This document shows positions 17,711 to 49,071 of a stretch of 64,000 nucleotides of DNA, piece by piece; positions within the stretch are counted from its first letter, which is position 1, and each line of letters begins with the position of its first letter. The stretch is taken from NCBI RefSeq assembly GCF_900167225.1, contig NZ_FUXH01000001.1, positions 193,371 through 257,370 on the forward strand, read 5' to 3'. The position numbers were made by a program, and so were the translations under genes. The notes beneath the pieces are model-generated. The model made no database searches. It worked only from the letters and a program-made list of their open reading frames with translations, and was not told the DNA's origin. The DNA comes from Porphyromonas crevioricanis (lineage in GTDB: Bacteria > Bacteroidota > Bacteroidia > Bacteroidales > Porphyromonadaceae).

Positions 17711-18297
17711 ATAGGAAAGGATTTGTTGGTTCAGCTTTTGGAGTCCGTCGTATGGGCATTCAAAATCTCTTTGCCTCGACTGTTTGATTGTATATGTTTT
17801 GTAAACTCTTGTGCCCTGTAAGAATTGGAAAAAGAGAAAAAAGAGAGACCTTTTTTAGGAAGTAAACAGCAGCCTTTTTTATGCATTATATCGACCTCTC
17901 AAAACCCCGATGAATAGGCTGTTCTGAGAGGGTCAAAATTCTCTCCTGAGAGAAATTTTGCTAACACAGGAGAAAAAGTTTGCTCTCACGGGAGAGAATT
18001 TTCGTTCTCTCCCGTGTTAGCAAAAAACGGCTCCCATGCACATCAAAAAAAGAGCAGAAAAACTCAATGAAGGACCTCTGATTTGAGTAGAGAAAACCTC
18101 TCAGATAGGAAACAATAGAATATAAAAATAAACAGAAGGAAGCATCTTGGAAAGAGCCTTGTGGAATGCAGATGAGACGAGAAAAATGCAGCCGAAAATC
18201 CGCATATAAAAGATTGCACAATCCGGAAGAGAGTGGATTGTGCAATACTCTCAAAGAGCTATGCGACTTTGAGACTGGAATGCTTAAGCGAATTTCC
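17711..18297. other. Gene-free region with nested palindromes
   Basis: About 590 bases between convergent genes. No reading frame here looks like a protein; the small minus-strand frame over 17961-18368 only translates the palindromes into RER-type low-complexity peptide. The notable content is the palindrome cluster at 17894-18025, listed separately. The remainder is AT-rich with scattered AGAGAG runs. Confidence 0.5.
17956..18025. repeat. Nested inverted repeats (two competing hairpins)
   Basis: Outer arms TTTTGCTAACAC (17956-17967) and GTGTTAGCAAAA (18014-18025) are a perfect 12-bp inverted repeat. Inside is another perfect 12-bp pair, CACGGGAGAGAA (17987-17998) and TTCTCTCCCGTG (18005-18016), loop TTTTCG. 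The two pairs share bases 18014-18016, so the structures partly compete. Just upstream, CAAAATTCTCTC and GAGAGAAATTTTG form a third, imperfect hairpin (17934-17960). The motif GGGAGAgAA-TTTT recurs. The function is unknown. Confidence 0.7.
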
Positions 18298-29559: not shown

Positions 29560-30282
29560 ATGCTTGATATCAAGACTGATACGGAGGAGAAGATCCTCAC
29601 CCCGGTTTGTGTGGTTCCACTTGGTCCCGGAAATCCCGAGGATTTAACCTTGGGTTGTTGGCATAAATTGCAGGCAGCCGATCTGATATTCTGTCCCTCT
29701 ACGCTTTCCGGAGAGAGCAAAGCTCGGCAGATCATGCTTGCTGTAGGTATCAAACCGGAGCAAATACGGGCTTATCCTTTGCCGATGTCGAAGGATAGGA
29801 CAGCTGCTCTGCGTGCATACGACAAGGTTACAGAGGAGGCTGCCGAAAACTATCGTCTTGGACTTCGAGTGGTAATTACAGCGGAGGGAGACGCCGGCTT
29901 GTATAGTAGCTCGGGCTATATCTTTAGCCGACTGGATCAATTAGGGGTGCAGACAGAACGGAAGGCTGGCATCCCAGCTTTTGTGGCTGCAGCAGCCTTG
30001 TCGAAGGTAATTCTTACAGAGGGGGATGAATCTTTGTTGATTCTCCCGATTGTGAAATCTGCCGAGAGTTTACTCAATCAAATAGATCAGGGTGCCACTG
30101 TTGTTTTGATGAAATGTTCGCAATCAGTGGAAACCATAAAGTCAGCCATTCGAAAAAGACCGGATTTGAATTGGCACTATTTTGAATCTGTCGGATATGC
30201 ACAGGAGTACTGCACCTCTTCTGTCGAGGAGATAATAGAGAGATCTTTCCCCTATTTTTCTCTTATCATTGTTCGGAGGTGA
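29560..30282 (+). CDS. cobI: Precorrin-2 C20-methyltransferase-like protein
   Basis: SAM-dependent tetrapyrrole methylase of 240 residues. The N-terminal VVPLGPGNPEDLTLGCWHKLQAADLIFCP is the cobalamin methylase signature, described here in pieces: PLGPGNPEDLTL and LQAADLIFCP. VITAEGDAGLYSSSGYIF is the SAM-binding loop. The spacing fits CobI/CbiL. I chose ATG 29560 because AAGGA stands seven bases before it, and the longer frame starts inside a terminator. No other cobalamin gene is adjacent, so the exact methylation position is inferred. Followed directly by the repeat element. Confidence 0.75.
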   Translation: MLDIKTDTEEKILTPVCVVPLGPGNPEDLTLGCWHKLQAADLIFCPSTLSGESKARQIMLAVGIKPEQIRAYPLPMSKDRTAALRAYDKVTEEAAENYRLGLRVVITAEGDAGLYSSSGYIFSRLDQLGVQTERKAGIPAFVAAAALSKVILTEGDESLLILPIVKSAESLLNQIDQGATVVLMKCSQSVETIKSAIRKRPDLNWHYFESVGYAQEYCTSSVEEIIERSFPYFSLIIVRR

Positions 30283-30345
30283 AGCCTTCTTGAGTGGCTG
30301 CAATTTGTTTCTTCTCGGTTTCATAATGGGAGCCGTGTAGTGCTC

Positions 30346-30527
30346 TTCTCGAGGTTGGTAATACACTTTCTTAAGGGTGTTTACATCCAAATCGCAGGAA
30401 AGTCCTCCATCGACTCTCTGGCACAAACTGACTATCGCAAGAGAACTATTGGAGACAAAGCATTCGCTTGAGGGGGATGTTTCTGCTCCATTTAGGTGCC
30501 ACGCAAAAGAAGTTGCCGAATGGTGGC
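30346..30527. repeat. Repeat module 1, left copy (copy A)
   Basis: About 180 bases that reappear in diverged form at 31180-31363 in the same orientation. Shared landmarks are TTCTCGAG at the start, GGAAA.TCCTC in the middle, and CC.CATTTAGGTG.C near the end. Its last part belongs to the 242-bp segment shared with the inverted copy at 46766-47007. Frames through it are broken and not conserved between copies, so I treat it as non-coding. Confidence 0.65.
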
Positions 30528-30682
30528 CCAAAAGATACCGGGCGATCGCAAGATTGCTCGGTATCTTTTTTTCGATTGCTCAGTATCCTTTCTGGGAAAC
30601 TTCTAATTAGTGCATCAAAAACTCCTAAGCTTTTGATTGATTGCTTGGCACATTTTTTTAGAAAGCACCTGATGAGAGCATC
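30441..30682 (+). repeat. 242-bp repeat element, copy A
   Basis: Aligned by eye with the reverse complement of 46766-47007: equal length, four mismatches. It contains part of module 1, a terminator-like hairpin and module 2, and ends exactly where the 22-bp array begins. The two copies are inverted relative to each other and 16 kb apart. Confidence 0.85.
30531..30571. terminator. Terminator-like hairpin inside repeat copy A
   Basis: AAAGATACCGGGCGATC, loop GCAA, GATTGCTCGGTATCTTT, with an A-run before and a T-run after. In copy B the arm reads GATCGCT, which turns a G-U pair into G-C; the change keeps the fold. Could terminate transcription from either side. Confidence 0.7.
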
Positions 30683-31056
30683 AAAAGCAACTAAGCTTTC
30701 GAGCAAAAGCAACTAAGCTTTCGAGCAAAAGCAACTAAGCTTTCGAGCAAAAGCAACTAAGCTTTCGAGCAAAAGCAACTAAGCTTTCGAGCAAAAGCAA
30801 CTAAGCTTTCAGACAAAAGCAACTAAGCTTTCACGCAAAAGCAGCTAAGCTTTCGAGCAAAAGCAACTAAGCTTTCACGCAAAAGCAGCTAAGCTTTCGA
30901 GTAAAAGCAACTAAGCTTTCACGCAAAAGCAACTAAGCTTTCAGACAAAAGCAGCTAAGCTTTCGAGCAAAAGCAACTAAGCTTTCAGACAAAAGCAACT
31001 AAGCTTTCGGACAAAAGCAACTAAGCTTTCACGCAAAAGCAATAAAGCTTTTGATT
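30683..31056 (+). repeat. 22-bp tandem repeat array, copy A (16 units plus one degenerate)
   Basis: Units begin at 30683 and follow every 22 bases. Each is AAAAGCAACTAAGCTTTC (some with GCAGCT) followed by a variable tetramer. In order the tetramers are GAGC five times, AGAC, ACGC, GAGC, ACGC, GAGT, ACGC, AGAC, GAGC, AGAC, GGAC, ACGC. The final unit (31035-31056) is degenerate, with AATAAAGCTTTT. Each unit can form a short AAAGC/GCTTT hairpin. There are no spacers, so it is not CRISPR. The period is not a multiple of three, so it is not coding. Copy number is likely to vary between strains. Confidence 0.92.
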
Positions 31057-31130
31057 GATTGCTCAGCATCTTTCCCGAAAGCTCCTAATTAGTGTATGAA
31101 AAGCACCTAAGCTTTCGATTGATGCCTCAG
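31057..31130 (+). repeat. Repeat module 2, right copy
   Basis: GATTGCTCAGCATCTTTC...CTAATTAGTGTATGAAAAGC resembles the segment just before the hairpin-array junction at about 30574-30645 (GATTGCTCAGTATCC...CTAATTAGTGCATCAAAAAC) in the same orientation. The array is therefore bracketed by direct repeats. Confidence 0.6.
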
Positions 31131-31179
31131 TAGCTTTTGATTGATTGCTTGCCGGCTTTCTCCAAATTGGTAATACGCT

Positions 31180-31363
31180 TTCTCGAGATTGGCAATACAT
31201 AATCTTAAGGCTGCTTACATCTAAATCACAGGAAAATCCTCTATTGACTCTCCGACAGACATCAACTGACTACTGCAGAAGAGCTATTGGAGATAAAGCT
31301 TTCGTTCGGGGGATATTTCTGCCCCATTTAGGTGTCGCTCAAAAGAACTTGCCAAATGGGCAA
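31180..31363 (+). repeat. Repeat module 1, right copy (diverged)
   Basis: Diverged direct copy of 30346-30527, starting TTCTCGAG and ending near CCAAATGGGCAAC. It lies between the array and the 3' end of rlmN. It lacks the terminator hairpin. Copy B at 46.6 kb has no equivalent module beyond its array. Confidence 0.6.
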
Positions 31364-31408
31364 CTTGTCCAAATCCTTAGTCCTTCCGTTACAGTTTGGA
31401 TAACATTT

Positions 31409-32437
31409 CTAAATTCTTCCCTCAAGAGCTGAGAGCATACCGCAAGCCGCAGCTATGTCTTCTCCTCGTGATTGACGGATCGTTACGGTATGTCCCTTTC
31501 GCTCCAACATCTCTTTGAATTGGATTAGTCTGTCTTCATCGGTGGAGGGCAGGTCGACATTCGGTATTCGGTGGTATCGGATCAAGTTGATCAAGGCCGG
31601 CAGTCCCTTGAGGAGAGTGGATAATCTGTTTGCGTGGTTGAGAGTGTCATTGAGTTTGCCAAAGACGATATACTCAAAACTTAATTTTCGTTGCCCTCCA
31701 AAGTTGTGCTGTCTTAGCAGTTCTATTGTTCGTTCAATAGGGAAAGCCTTTTCGGTGGGCATTATTTGTGCTCGCTCTTCCGGAATTGCATTGTGAATGC
31801 TGATAGCCAAATGACAGTTGCATTCTTTGAGGAATGTCTCCAAGGCCTTTGTCACTCCAATTGTGCTGAGAGTTATTCGTTTGGGACTCCAAGCAATTCC
31901 CCAATTAGAAGTCAATATGCTTATGGATTTCATAACAGCCGAAAGGTTGTCAAGCGGTTCGCCCATACCCATGTAGACGATATTGGTTAGCAGTGAAGCT
32001 TCTTCTACTGAGAAGATTTGGTTGATAATTTCTGCAGCCGAGAGATGACCACTGAACCCCTGTTTCCCTGTCATGCAGAATAGACAATTCATTTTGCAAC
32101 CGACTTGAGTGGAAATACAGAGGGTATATCGCCCTTTATCCGGTATCATTACGGATTCTACATATTGTCCCTCCTTGATGCGAAACAGATATTTACGAGT
32201 ACCATCTGCAGATTGCTGTACGTATTGGGGAGCATATCGTCCTACTGTGTATTCTTGGGATAGTTTCTCTCTATTACTCAAGCTCAAATTAGTCATTTCC
32301 TCTATCTGAGAAATTCGTTTTACATAAAGCCAATCGGCTATCTGTTTGGCAGTGAATTTGGGCATTCCTGACCGGATAACGATCTCCTGTAATTCTTGTA
32401 GAGAAAGGCCTAAAAGAGGTTTCTTATTCTGCTCCAT
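31409..32437 (-). CDS. rlmN: 23S rRNA (adenine-C2)-methyltransferase RlmN
   Basis: Radical-SAM enzyme methylating A2503 of 23S rRNA and A37 of some tRNAs. The 342 residues contain the cluster motif C-KMN-C-LF-C (STQVGCKMNCLFCMTGKQGF). The methyl-carrying cysteine near the C-terminus lies in GEDIAAACGML, and GMGEPL binds SAM. Normal length. Last gene of the minus-strand run kdsB-dnaG-priA-uvrB-rlmN, 59 bases after uvrB. Its stop lies about 45 bases from repeat module 1. Confidence 0.96.
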   Translation of the reverse strand: MEQNKKPLLGLSLQELQEIVIRSGMPKFTAKQIADWLYVKRISQIEEMTNLSLSNREKLSQEYTVGRYAPQYVQQSADGTRKYLFRIKEGQYVESVMIPDKGRYTLCISTQVGCKMNCLFCMTGKQGFSGHLSAAEIINQIFSVEEASLLTNIVYMGMGEPLDNLSAVMKSISILTSNWGIAWSPKRITLSTIGVTKALETFLKECNCHLAISIHNAIPEERAQIMPTEKAFPIERTIELLRQHNFGGQRKLSFEYIVFGKLNDTLNHANRLSTLLKGLPALINLIRYHRIPNVDLPSTDEDRLIQFKEMLERKGHTVTIRQSRGEDIAAACGMLSALEGRI

Positions 32438-46376: not shown

Positions 46377-46611
46377 AGTATAGATTTGTCTCGATTGTTT
46401 TCTTGCTTGCTAAACACTTTCTGGATTGAAACACATTTTCTCTAGGGCTTGTTTAGGTTTTTAACTTCAAATTTTTGATAGCATCTTTTAGACTGGAGAA
46501 TACCATTTATTTCCTTGTGGTTCCATCTTTTTTATTGAGGGGTTTTCTCTGTTCGGATTGAGTGGCTTTTCAGGCTGTATTCGGTGTTTCTAAAAAAGCT
46601 ACTGAGTAATC
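46377..46611. other. Intergenic region before repeat copy B
   Basis: AT-rich gap upstream of the DUF2156 gene. It should hold that gene's promoter, but I find no good TAnnTTTG with spacing. No gene or RNA recognised. Confidence 0.35.
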
Positions 46612-46765
46612 TCTTAAAAGCTTTATTGCTTTTGCTCGAAAGCTTAGTTGCTTTTGCGTGAAAGCTTAGTTGCTTTTGCGTGAAAGCTTAGTTGCTTTTG
46701 CGTGAAAGCTTAGTTGCTTTTGTCCGAAAGCTTAGTTGCTTTTGTCTGAAAGCTTAGTTGCTTTT
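46612..46765 (-). repeat. 22-bp tandem repeat array, copy B (six units plus one degenerate)
   Basis: Read on the minus strand from 46765, units follow every 22 bases with tetramers AGAC, GGAC, ACGC, ACGC, ACGC, GAGC. They end in the same degenerate AAAAGCAATAAAGCTTTT unit as copy A. The AGAC-GGAC-ACGC order also occurs near the end of copy A. Ten fewer full units than copy A, so the arrays vary in length within one genome. Confidence 0.92.
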
Positions 46766-47007
46766 GATGCTCTCATCAGGTGCTTTCTAAAAAAATGTGC
46801 CAAGCAATCAATCAAAAGCTTAGGAGTTTTTGATGCACTAATTAGAAGTTTCCCAGAAAGGATACTGAGCAATCGAAAAAAAGATACCGAGCGATCTTGC
46901 GATCGCCCGGTATCTTTTGGACCACCATTCGGCAACTTCTTTTGCGTGGCACCTAAATGGAGCAGAAACATCCCCCTCAAGCGAATGCTTTATCTCTAAT
47001 AGTTCTC
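46766..47007 (-). repeat. 242-bp repeat element, copy B (inverted)
   Basis: Reverse complement matches 30441-30682 at 238 of 242 positions by my count. It contains the terminator-like hairpin (46876-46917) with one fold-preserving change. Homology stops sharply at 47007, while copy A continues into more of module 1. The element lies between the DUF2156 gene and fbp. Confidence 0.85.
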
Positions 47008-47047
47008 TTTTAGGAAGAGGTGTTTGTTTGCTTTTCTTTTTTCGAAT

Positions 47048-47106
47048 AATTAGAGGTTAGCCAACGGCCTCCCTGAGAGAGGAAGCCATACCTCACACCT
47101 CTAATT
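47048..47106 (-). other. Inverted repeat at the end of fbp
   Basis: AATTAGAGGT (47048-47057) and ACCTCTAATT (47097-47106) are perfect 10-bp arms, and an inner GGCCTCCC/GGAAGCC stem lies between them. The right arm includes the fbp stop codon. There is no T-run, so it is probably a 3' stability structure or weak terminator. Confidence 0.5.
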
Positions 47107-49071
47107 GTCCTTTTCCTGTATTAAACCGTATCGGTATGCCTCGAGCAAATCCTTCAAGTCTTTTACCTGCTCAATCAACTCTTTCCCCTTATCGGTATCG
47201 CGTACCAAAATGCGGTGAGAGGTATGCTCTCGTACCACACTTACACTCTTTATATCTCTCATGTTCTCCACCGCTTCTCGTTTGCTGGTGAAAGGCTCAT
47301 GTTGTACCAATTGCAAGCCTTGAGAATTGAATATAAGCGTATATCCGGCGATACCCGTAGATGATTGATAAGCTCGGCTAAAACCTCCATCGATGAGCAT
47401 CAACTTTCCTCCCGCAAGTAGCGGCTTCTCTCCTTTCTTTGCTTTTACCGGTACGTGCCCATTTACGATGTGTGTGTCAGGGCCTTCCAAGCCAAACTCC
47501 TTGAGAATCATTTCACAAACTTCCTGCTCTTGACGGTAGACAAAGTACCACCCCTTTTGCTCATGGTGGGTTGTTTTGTCTTCGATGAAATATCGTTCAA
47601 AAGTTGTCATGGCAGATTTATCGAAAAGAGGAGAGTCAGGGCCACACCAGAGGTACCACATATAGTCTAAAGCCTCAAGTTGTTCAGGGCTTCCCGCTTG
47701 CCCATTGTGGGCTCTTCGCACCAATTCATCGATTTTGTCGTAGAGAGCCTTACCCTTATACGTCTTTCCCTCAACGGTTACTTCTTTGAGGGTCTTGTCT
47801 TCGTTTAGAGGTACGGATGCGTGGTAGAGCAGGGTCATATTGTAGGGCAAATACATAGAGCCTTTGCGGTAGAAACACTCCATGTGTCTATTGAGGCGTT
47901 CACTCTCACGGAAGCTCCTCATTAGTTTATTTACCACTATGCTTTCTTCCTCGGTCATTCGGTATGGATCTTTTGGATCTATTGTTGGGAAATGAGTGTC
48001 CAGCATTGGGTAAGTTTCTCCAGAGGGTAGGGTAATACTTCCGGATTTGAAATCAATGCGATGCAGTAAGTCTCTATCTGCCATCTTGTATTCTGGATGC
48101 CGTACAATCAGTTCGTGTTCGAGCTTGAATTGTATTACAGACATCGCTTTGTGCATTTGGCTGATCAGATAGACGCTTTTTTCATCATACAACTCGTCGG
48201 CCCCCGACAATTTGGGTTGAAATACAGCACAGGGATCATTGGCGTAGGTCTCCATGGCAAATCTTGCCAATGGCAGGATATTGATCCCATATCCATTCTC
48301 CATCGTGTCAAGGTTGGCATACCTGAGAGCGATACGAACAGTATTGGCCATGCTGGCGGCATTCCCGGCTGCAGCTCCCATCCAAAGCATATCATGGTTT
48401 CCCCATTGAATGTCGAATTGGTGATAATTCATCAAAGTGTCCATGATATGCTGAGGGCCAGGGCCTCTATCATATATGTCTCCGACAATGTGTAGGTGAT
48501 CTACTACTAGACGTTGGATGGTATTGCAAATGGCGATGATGAAGTCTTCAGCCTTACCTATCTGCAATATGGTAGAGAATATACTGCTGAAATAGGCTGA
48601 CTTCTGAGGGTTAGCTCCATCCTCGTGCAGAAGTTCTTGTATGATATAGCTATACTTGGGTGGCAAGGCTTTTCGCACTTTGGATCTGGTGTATTTCTCT
48701 CCTACCTTTCGGCAGAGTTTGACCAATTGATTAAGTGTAACCATGTACCAATCGTCATTGAGAGCTCCTTTTTCGTGCAACTCTGCCAATTTCTCTTGTG
48801 GATAATAGATGAGCGTGCATAGCTCACGCTTTTCCTCCTGCCTGATCTGGCCACCAAACAAGTTCTCCACCTTGCGAGCAATGGAGCCACTGGCATTTTT
48901 AAGCACATGGTTAAAGGCTTCGTACTCTCCGTGCACATCAGCCAAAAAATGTTCTGTGCCCTTCGGAAGGCTGAGTATTGCTTCCAGATTGATGATCTCA
49001 GTAGCTGCTTCTGCTGCTGTTGGAAAGCTTTTAGCAAGCTGATGTAGGAATTTTAGGTCTTTATTTTGCAT
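47101..49071 (-). CDS. fbp: Fructose-1,6-bisphosphatase class 3
   Basis: Gluconeogenic phosphatase of the Firmicutes/Bacteroidota type, from the calcineurin-like phosphoesterase superfamily. The 656-residue protein has the metal-binding blocks FLADVHGEYEAF, GDIYDRGPGPQ, WGNHDMLWMG and, near the C-terminus, IVNGHVPVKAKKGE and LMLIDGGFSRAYQSSTGIAGYTL (cited as DGGFSRAYQS). Length matches the family. Needed for hexose synthesis in an organism living on amino acids. Monocistronic, with an inverted repeat at its end. Confidence 0.97.
   Translation of the reverse strand: MQNKDLKFLHQLAKSFPTAAEAATEIINLEAILSLPKGTEHFLADVHGEYEAFNHVLKNASGSIARKVENLFGGQIRQEEKRELCTLIYYPQEKLAELHEKGALNDDWYMVTLNQLVKLCRKVGEKYTRSKVRKALPPKYSYIIQELLHEDGANPQKSAYFSSIFSTILQIGKAEDFIIAICNTIQRLVVDHLHIVGDIYDRGPGPQHIMDTLMNYHQFDIQWGNHDMLWMGAAAGNAASMANTVRIALRYANLDTMENGYGINILPLARFAMETYANDPCAVFQPKLSGADELYDEKSVYLISQMHKAMSVIQFKLEHELIVRHPEYKMADRDLLHRIDFKSGSITLPSGETYPMLDTHFPTIDPKDPYRMTEEESIVVNKLMRSFRESERLNRHMECFYRKGSMYLPYNMTLLYHASVPLNEDKTLKEVTVEGKTYKGKALYDKIDELVRRAHNGQAGSPEQLEALDYMWYLWCGPDSPLFDKSAMTTFERYFIEDKTTHHEQKGWYFVYRQEQEVCEMILKEFGLEGPDTHIVNGHVPVKAKKGEKPLLAGGKLMLIDGGFSRAYQSSTGIAGYTLIFNSQGLQLVQHEPFTSKREAVENMRDIKSVSVVREHTSHRILVRDTDKGKELIEQVKDLKDLLEAYRYGLIQEKDN

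Follow-up and report, generated by a model that had tools for sequence, protein, structure and literature searches.

A 22-bp minisatellite of Porphyromonas crevioricanis and its proposed origin from terminator-like intergenic palindromes

The 22-bp tandem array analysed here lies in a 64,000-nucleotide stretch of the Porphyromonas crevioricanis genome (the whole stretch is referred to as the window). With a probability of roughly 0.6, this minisatellite represents the expanded tandem form of a family-wide intergenic palindromic repeat and derives from hairpin repeats of a terminator-like type that belong to mobile elements. The layout of the unit, the invariance of its arms, the phase and dyads found across the family, the homology of the leader and the multi-copy state are direct observations, while the growth process and the role of the repeats are proposed on their basis.

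Arms and spacers of the 22-bp unit

As originally predicted, the interval 30683-31056 is filled by 17 units at an exact 22-bp step, each consisting of an 18-mer and a tetramer (Table 1). Tandem Repeats Finder (TRF) reports the array at 30682-31051 with period 22, 16.8 copies and a score of 580. Among the 16 core units, variation is confined to position 8 of the 18-mer (A in 13, G in 3) and to the tetramer (GAGC 7, ACGC 4, AGAC 3, GGAC 1, GAGT 1). The motifs AAAGC and GCTTT take turns at 11-bp intervals, with two six-base stretches between them, one of the AACTAA type and one made of C, the tetramer and A. All units of the window array are in direct orientation, which leaves arms of only 5 bp per unit. 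A second array within the window (TRF: 46617-46766, 6.8 copies, score 223) carries the tetramers AGAC, GGAC, ACGC and GAGC on the minus strand and also finishes in AAAAGCAATAAAGCTTTT, in agreement with the earlier claims that tetramers and the end unit are common to both loci. It is adjoined by a gene at 47104-49071 for a Firmicute-type fructose-1,6-bisphosphatase (PF06874). Another 22-bp near-duplicate, of the TCTCCAAATTGGTAATACGC type, is present at 31155-31198 and at locus L050, with a match on contig C10.

Table 1. Features of the two array loci in the window.
Feature	Position	Strand	Basis or remark
Leader, 3'-terminal remnant of a small helix-turn-helix (HTH; excisionase-like) gene	30346..30523	+	homology to HTH-gene ends; interrupted frames
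Terminator-like hairpin: 18-bp stem, GCAA loop, T-run	30530..30569	+	fold and layout in relatives
Three degenerate 22-mers sharing the register of the array	30617..30682	+	AAAAACTCCTAAGCTTTT unit 66 bp (3 x 22) ahead of unit 1
Core array	30683..31034	+	16 units, each of 18+4 bp
Last, variant unit AAAAGCAATAAAGCTTTT-GATT	31035..31056	+	same 18-mer terminates the arrays at 46612, C6 and C10 (both)
Degenerate tail, unit-like pieces	31057..31200	+	similarity to leader units and other tails; TRF 31155-31198
Second, direct copy of the HTH-gene remnant, without hairpin	31180..31359	+	80% identical to 30346-30523
Second array, 7 units	46612..46765	-	TRF and unit reading
Leader of the second array, hairpin at 46879-46918	46766..47009	-	identity to the first leader

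Several features extend the original prediction, namely further arrays on six contigs, leaders of about 95% identity and degenerate in-register units flanking the core. The related arrays are found on contigs C6, C8, C10, C13, C17 and C21 of the 2.05-Mb genome (29 contigs). The exact 18-mer occurs 48 times in this genome, the backward-read control pattern 0 times, and the 25 other genomes of the genus contain no match to the exact 18-mer. In total, 74 units were read in ten arrays; they were read in register at places found by similarity, with strongly changed edge units under-counted. Since contigs C6, C10 (at both ends) and C13 stop inside arrays of the 22-bp class, assembled copy numbers may be wrong (collapsed), and contig breaks and unit counts at such arrays should be regarded as assembly-sensitive. 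With one genome per species covered, the array is a candidate marker for strain typing.

The arms AAAGC and GCTTT do not change in any of the 74 units. The entropy per position is zero bits in the arms, 0.41 in the middle and 1.52 in the tetramer; changes in the first six-base stretch fall on positions 7-10, and there are 26 different tetramers. Because homogenisation alone would not fix the arms and yet free the spacers within one unit, the arms look constrained. The proposed hairpin or cruciform potential of the unit is borne out by the invariant arms, and also by the dyad, which other species retain through compensating changes. The suggestion that the tetramers form a code or record duplications found no such backing, as their order in the window array is indistinguishable from shuffles. 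Identical tetramers at lags 1-5 give P 0.085 at lag 2 and 0.55-0.69 at the other four, and the longest tetramer run common to both window arrays, AGAC-GGAC-ACGC, is matched by 40% of shuffles (P 0.40). The order thus holds no positive trace of duplications, a point against the expansion proposed below. The tetramer is a spacer or loop between conserved arms and not a code, which accounts for an 18-mer that stays fixed while the spacer drifts.

The leader block and its genomic setting

Near-identical leaders (about 95%) are present at three places: ahead of the window array, at 46767-47009 and at C13:1-455. Across leader and units, 46617-47009 is 94.9% identical to 30439-30831. The full-length relative of the leader remnant is an 83-aa HTH gene, the frames of which are broken in the window. 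By reading of its sequence, the 83-aa protein is a putative helix-turn-helix, excisionase-like protein; a Pfam scan of it gave no match. Homologues of this protein are encoded in 14 of the 26 genomes of the genus, the present one included. Window positions 30382-30592 align at 70-75% over about 210 bp with an HTH-gene end plus hairpin in genomes G003, G004, G005 and G014, and at many other loci the alignment covers about 70-95 bp, which is the gene end alone. The leader hairpin forms 18 pairs (MFE -28.3, z -5.07) and its counterpart in the second leader pairs at 18 of 18 positions with G-T counted. A stable stem followed by a T-run, as in intrinsic terminators, is present, and the 18+4+18 hairpin layout recurs in six other genomes of the genus (G003, G004, G005, G008, G009 and G017). 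Covariation within the 18-bp hairpin amounts to one double change among 8 sequences, not above shuffles. However, the nearest intact gene, which is cobI-like, has its end at 30282, leaving 248 bp to the stem. A search with Rfam yielded nothing at gathering score and only two sub-threshold chance matches, and the Bacteroidetes promoter motif TANNTTTG was not found in 30283-31408.

Arrays of this class are tied to terminator hairpins and to the gene ends of mobile elements. By raw count, 10 of 16 arrays in relatives have the 3' end of a gene no more than 45 bp away, and three of these ten represent one integrase-integrase junction of a mobile element in three genomes. A corresponding junction in the own genome, at C8:14050 between two Phage_integrase-domain genes, carries a three-unit array whose middle unit, GAAAGCAATAAAGCTTTT, is one base off the common last unit of the window arrays. 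A similar three-unit array is located at C20:155335, between two ORFs of like size. Loci L046, L056, L058 and L060 show a conserved array of three 18+4 units flanked by tandem integrase genes of a mobile element, an arrangement that extends to G028, a genome from another genus of the family. For the large arrays of the own genome, the distance to gene ends is roughly 100-400 bp, and the gaps that they occupy are convergent, tandem or divergent. An orthologous empty site was not seen, because the relatives are too distant (at most 45% identity in the neighbouring protein). Additionally, an HU-like gene is found about 110 bp downstream of an array or hairpin of the class in G003, G005, G007 and G008, as detected by an HU-HIG (PF18291) scan in G003 and G007 and by protein reading in G005 and G008. 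At the HU-HIG-adjacent loci L072, L103, L057 and L090, two different repeat sequences occupy the equivalent position.

That the array is the internal minisatellite of a non-autonomous mobile element (MITE), comparable to BrickBuilt of Porphyromonas gingivalis, is possible but unlikely. The three leaders of about 95% identity stand at unrelated intergenic places with flanks and internal repeats, and the general anatomy resembles that of BrickBuilt (PMC4596501). Against a MITE, a terminal repeat of the BrickBuilt type is absent at both window loci with 2 mismatches allowed, the leader homologies start at differing points and no target duplication was identified.

The layout in relatives and the proposed growth of the array

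For 16 arrays belonging to 10 further genomes of the family, the phase of the dyads was assessed using one seed each and scoring unselected neighbours at offsets from -66 to +66; some of these arrays are related copies, so that the effective sample is smaller than 16. Offset 0 carries no weight, as the seeds are palindromic by the search pattern. Out of 9 possible dyad pairs, the mean is 4.88 at +22, 4.75 at -22, 4.62 at +44 and 3.00 at -44. The other in-register offsets give 5.12 at 11, 4.81 at 33, 3.94 at -11, 3.81 at 66 and 3.31 at 55, with weaker values of 2.50 at -33, 2.94 at -55 and 2.88 at -66. The background of 102 other offsets has a mean of 2.29 (sd 0.40, max 3.44). The low value at -44 counts against the proposed layout. 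The dyads are kept by compensation: exchanging halves among 69 distinct neighbour units leaves on average 245 pairs (sd 11, max 282 in 2000 trials), compared to 287 in the actual units, and a compensated arm change is seen in G007, where AAATAGTTCTAAGTATTC stands next to AAAAGCTCTTAAGCTTTC. Units in G003 are likewise of the 18+4 type (AAAAGCACCTAAGCTTTC-ATCT-GATTACACCTAAGCTTTT-ACTC-AAAAGCTTAGGAGCTTTT). Arrays of relatives are short, with 1-6 units, and frequently contain inverted units, which pair to form stems of 18 bp closed by a 4-nt loop. Among arrays of at least three units, relatives and own genome together, 13 of 16 fold at z below -4 on the better strand. In an order-level sample of 393 genomes, four show the phased pattern; one of them is the own genome, and the loop sequences of the remaining three are unrelated. 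The pattern was not found in IMG/VR, where own-like records may be excluded. Judged by these comparisons, the 18+4 layout is older than the window array.

Under the preferred reading, expansion of a palindromic terminator-like repeat, the unit of the class is built from a half-site (6), a middle (6), an inverted half-site (6) and a 4-bp spacer; this arrangement repeats the dyad at 22-bp intervals, which corresponds to two turns of DNA. In relatives, the short arrays behind gene ends and at mobile-element junctions would most likely act as (bidirectional) transcription terminators or insulators. A block of excisionase-like gene end, terminator hairpin and units may then have been copied to several intergenic places of the own species, where the arm (18) and loop (4) of the hairpin would have become the minisatellite unit and the units would have multiplied by slippage or unequal exchange. 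This is the usual growth route of minisatellites, and slippage is the probable process here. The expanded part itself presumably adds little beyond weak hairpins. With all units of the window array direct and its arms 5 bp long, any terminator strength should come from the leader hairpin. A pure terminator role does not agree with the large own arrays, which are not directly behind genes and occur in divergent gaps as well.

A neutral minisatellite without function, in which the invariance of the arms reflects homogenisation only, is considered doubtful. Expansion is indeed restricted to the own genome, where the tandem dyad pattern has 73 matches, compared to a maximum of 3 in the 37 other family genomes, 7 of which contain 1-3, and the edges are degenerate as in homogenised arrays. 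However, homogenisation should have fixed the tetramers too, of which so many forms persist, and the arms recur in the arrays of other species.

It also seems unlikely that the array serves protein binding, with a dimeric protein reading each dyad, the 22-bp step presenting one helix face, and the whole acting as a titration or nucleoid-organising platform. Dyads phased at 22 bp in many species agree with such a function, invariant arms with free spacers suit operators as well as hairpins, and the HU-like gene behind array or hairpin in four genomes could point in the same direction. Here, the HTH-hairpin block of G004 represents a counterexample, as no HU-like gene follows it in the stretch read. 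In addition, the frequent inverted units pairing over 18 bp in relatives are unneeded for binding, and the binder is hypothetical. If a protein did read the 22-bp phase, the arrays would constitute a new kind of chromosomal binding lattice.

A window-wide search for phased dyads brought up a second dispersed element, at 17915-18035. Itself included, it occurs at 33 places, which are 83-100% identical over 94-121 bp; of 26 genomes of the genus, the own genome is the only one in which it was found, and 0 of 32 copies lie within an ORF of at least 150 aa. In an alignment of 30, conservation extends over about 370 bp, and the core comprises five GAGA/TCTC units phased at 22 bp. Covariation as assessed by RNAalifold was close to nil, a double change being present in 1 of 18 pairs. 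The third 22-bp unit of this element and its copies (L288-L319) exists in several forms, among them one that looks like another in reverse complement; hairpin-guided inversion could be the cause, the pattern being ambiguous. The 22-bp phase is common to sequence-unrelated families, this element included. Outside the arrays, 13 phased dyad triplets in the window face a Markov mean of 7.6 (range 2-16, 12 runs), which is no general excess. It is quite improbable that Porphyromonas intergenic DNA holds a general two-turn (22-bp) palindrome lattice, in which AAAGC/GCTTT units, GATACC hairpins and the 33-copy GAGA/TCTC element would share the 18+4 register because of one host factor (perhaps the HU-like protein encoded next to such arrays in four genomes) reading helical phase and dyad instead of sequence, or one replication process (hairpin-guided template switching) that would generate all of them.

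Comparison with known repeat systems

A CRISPR array can be dismissed, as the spacers are 4 bp long and recur, in contrast to unique spacers of about 30 bp. Intrinsic (Rho-independent) terminators resemble the leader hairpin in its 18-bp stem, 4-nt loop and T-run, whereas each unit of the expanded array has arms of only 5 bp and is not followed by a long T-run. REP and BIME elements are short intergenic palindromes that occur in clusters. The present repeats are likewise clustered, short, intergenic and palindromic, with both unit orientations in relatives of the own genome, but the 22-bp array differs from them in being tandem-phased with 4-bp spacers. Head-to-tail units with little divergence, as in minisatellites or VNTRs, are present. 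No description of the 22-bp repeat was found in the literature covered. The BrickBuilt report (PMC4596501) cites the W83 genome paper for 22-nt tandem direct repeats in P. gingivalis W83; these share period and genus with the present array, a comparison made without their sequence, and may correspond to the short arrays of G005.

The closest known counterpart is BrickBuilt, a MITE of P. gingivalis with a 23-nt repeat and IS5-type terminal repeats (Klein et al., 2015), the repeat of which is known from P. gingivalis and P. gulae (PMC4596501). Both are intergenic and multi-copy, surround a tandem minisatellite of predicted stem-loops with a leader and a tail, belong to the same genus and break assemblies; the window array itself is intergenic and has leader and tail around its repeats. 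In contrast to this shared anatomy, the 23-nt repeat is unrelated in sequence to the 22-bp units, and the IS5-type terminal repeats are not found at the window loci. The BrickBuilt repeat AGAYCATARTATCCTCTCRTRTG has 0 matches in the own genome with up to 2 mismatches, compared to 217 in G005 and 28 in G007, and terminal inverted repeats like GAGACCTTTGCA are absent from 30200-31500 and 46500-47100 at the same tolerance. The 22-bp array is thus not a copy of BrickBuilt but is closest to it in anatomy and host, which suggests that minisatellite-bearing intergenic elements of unrelated sequence have more than one origin in Porphyromonas.
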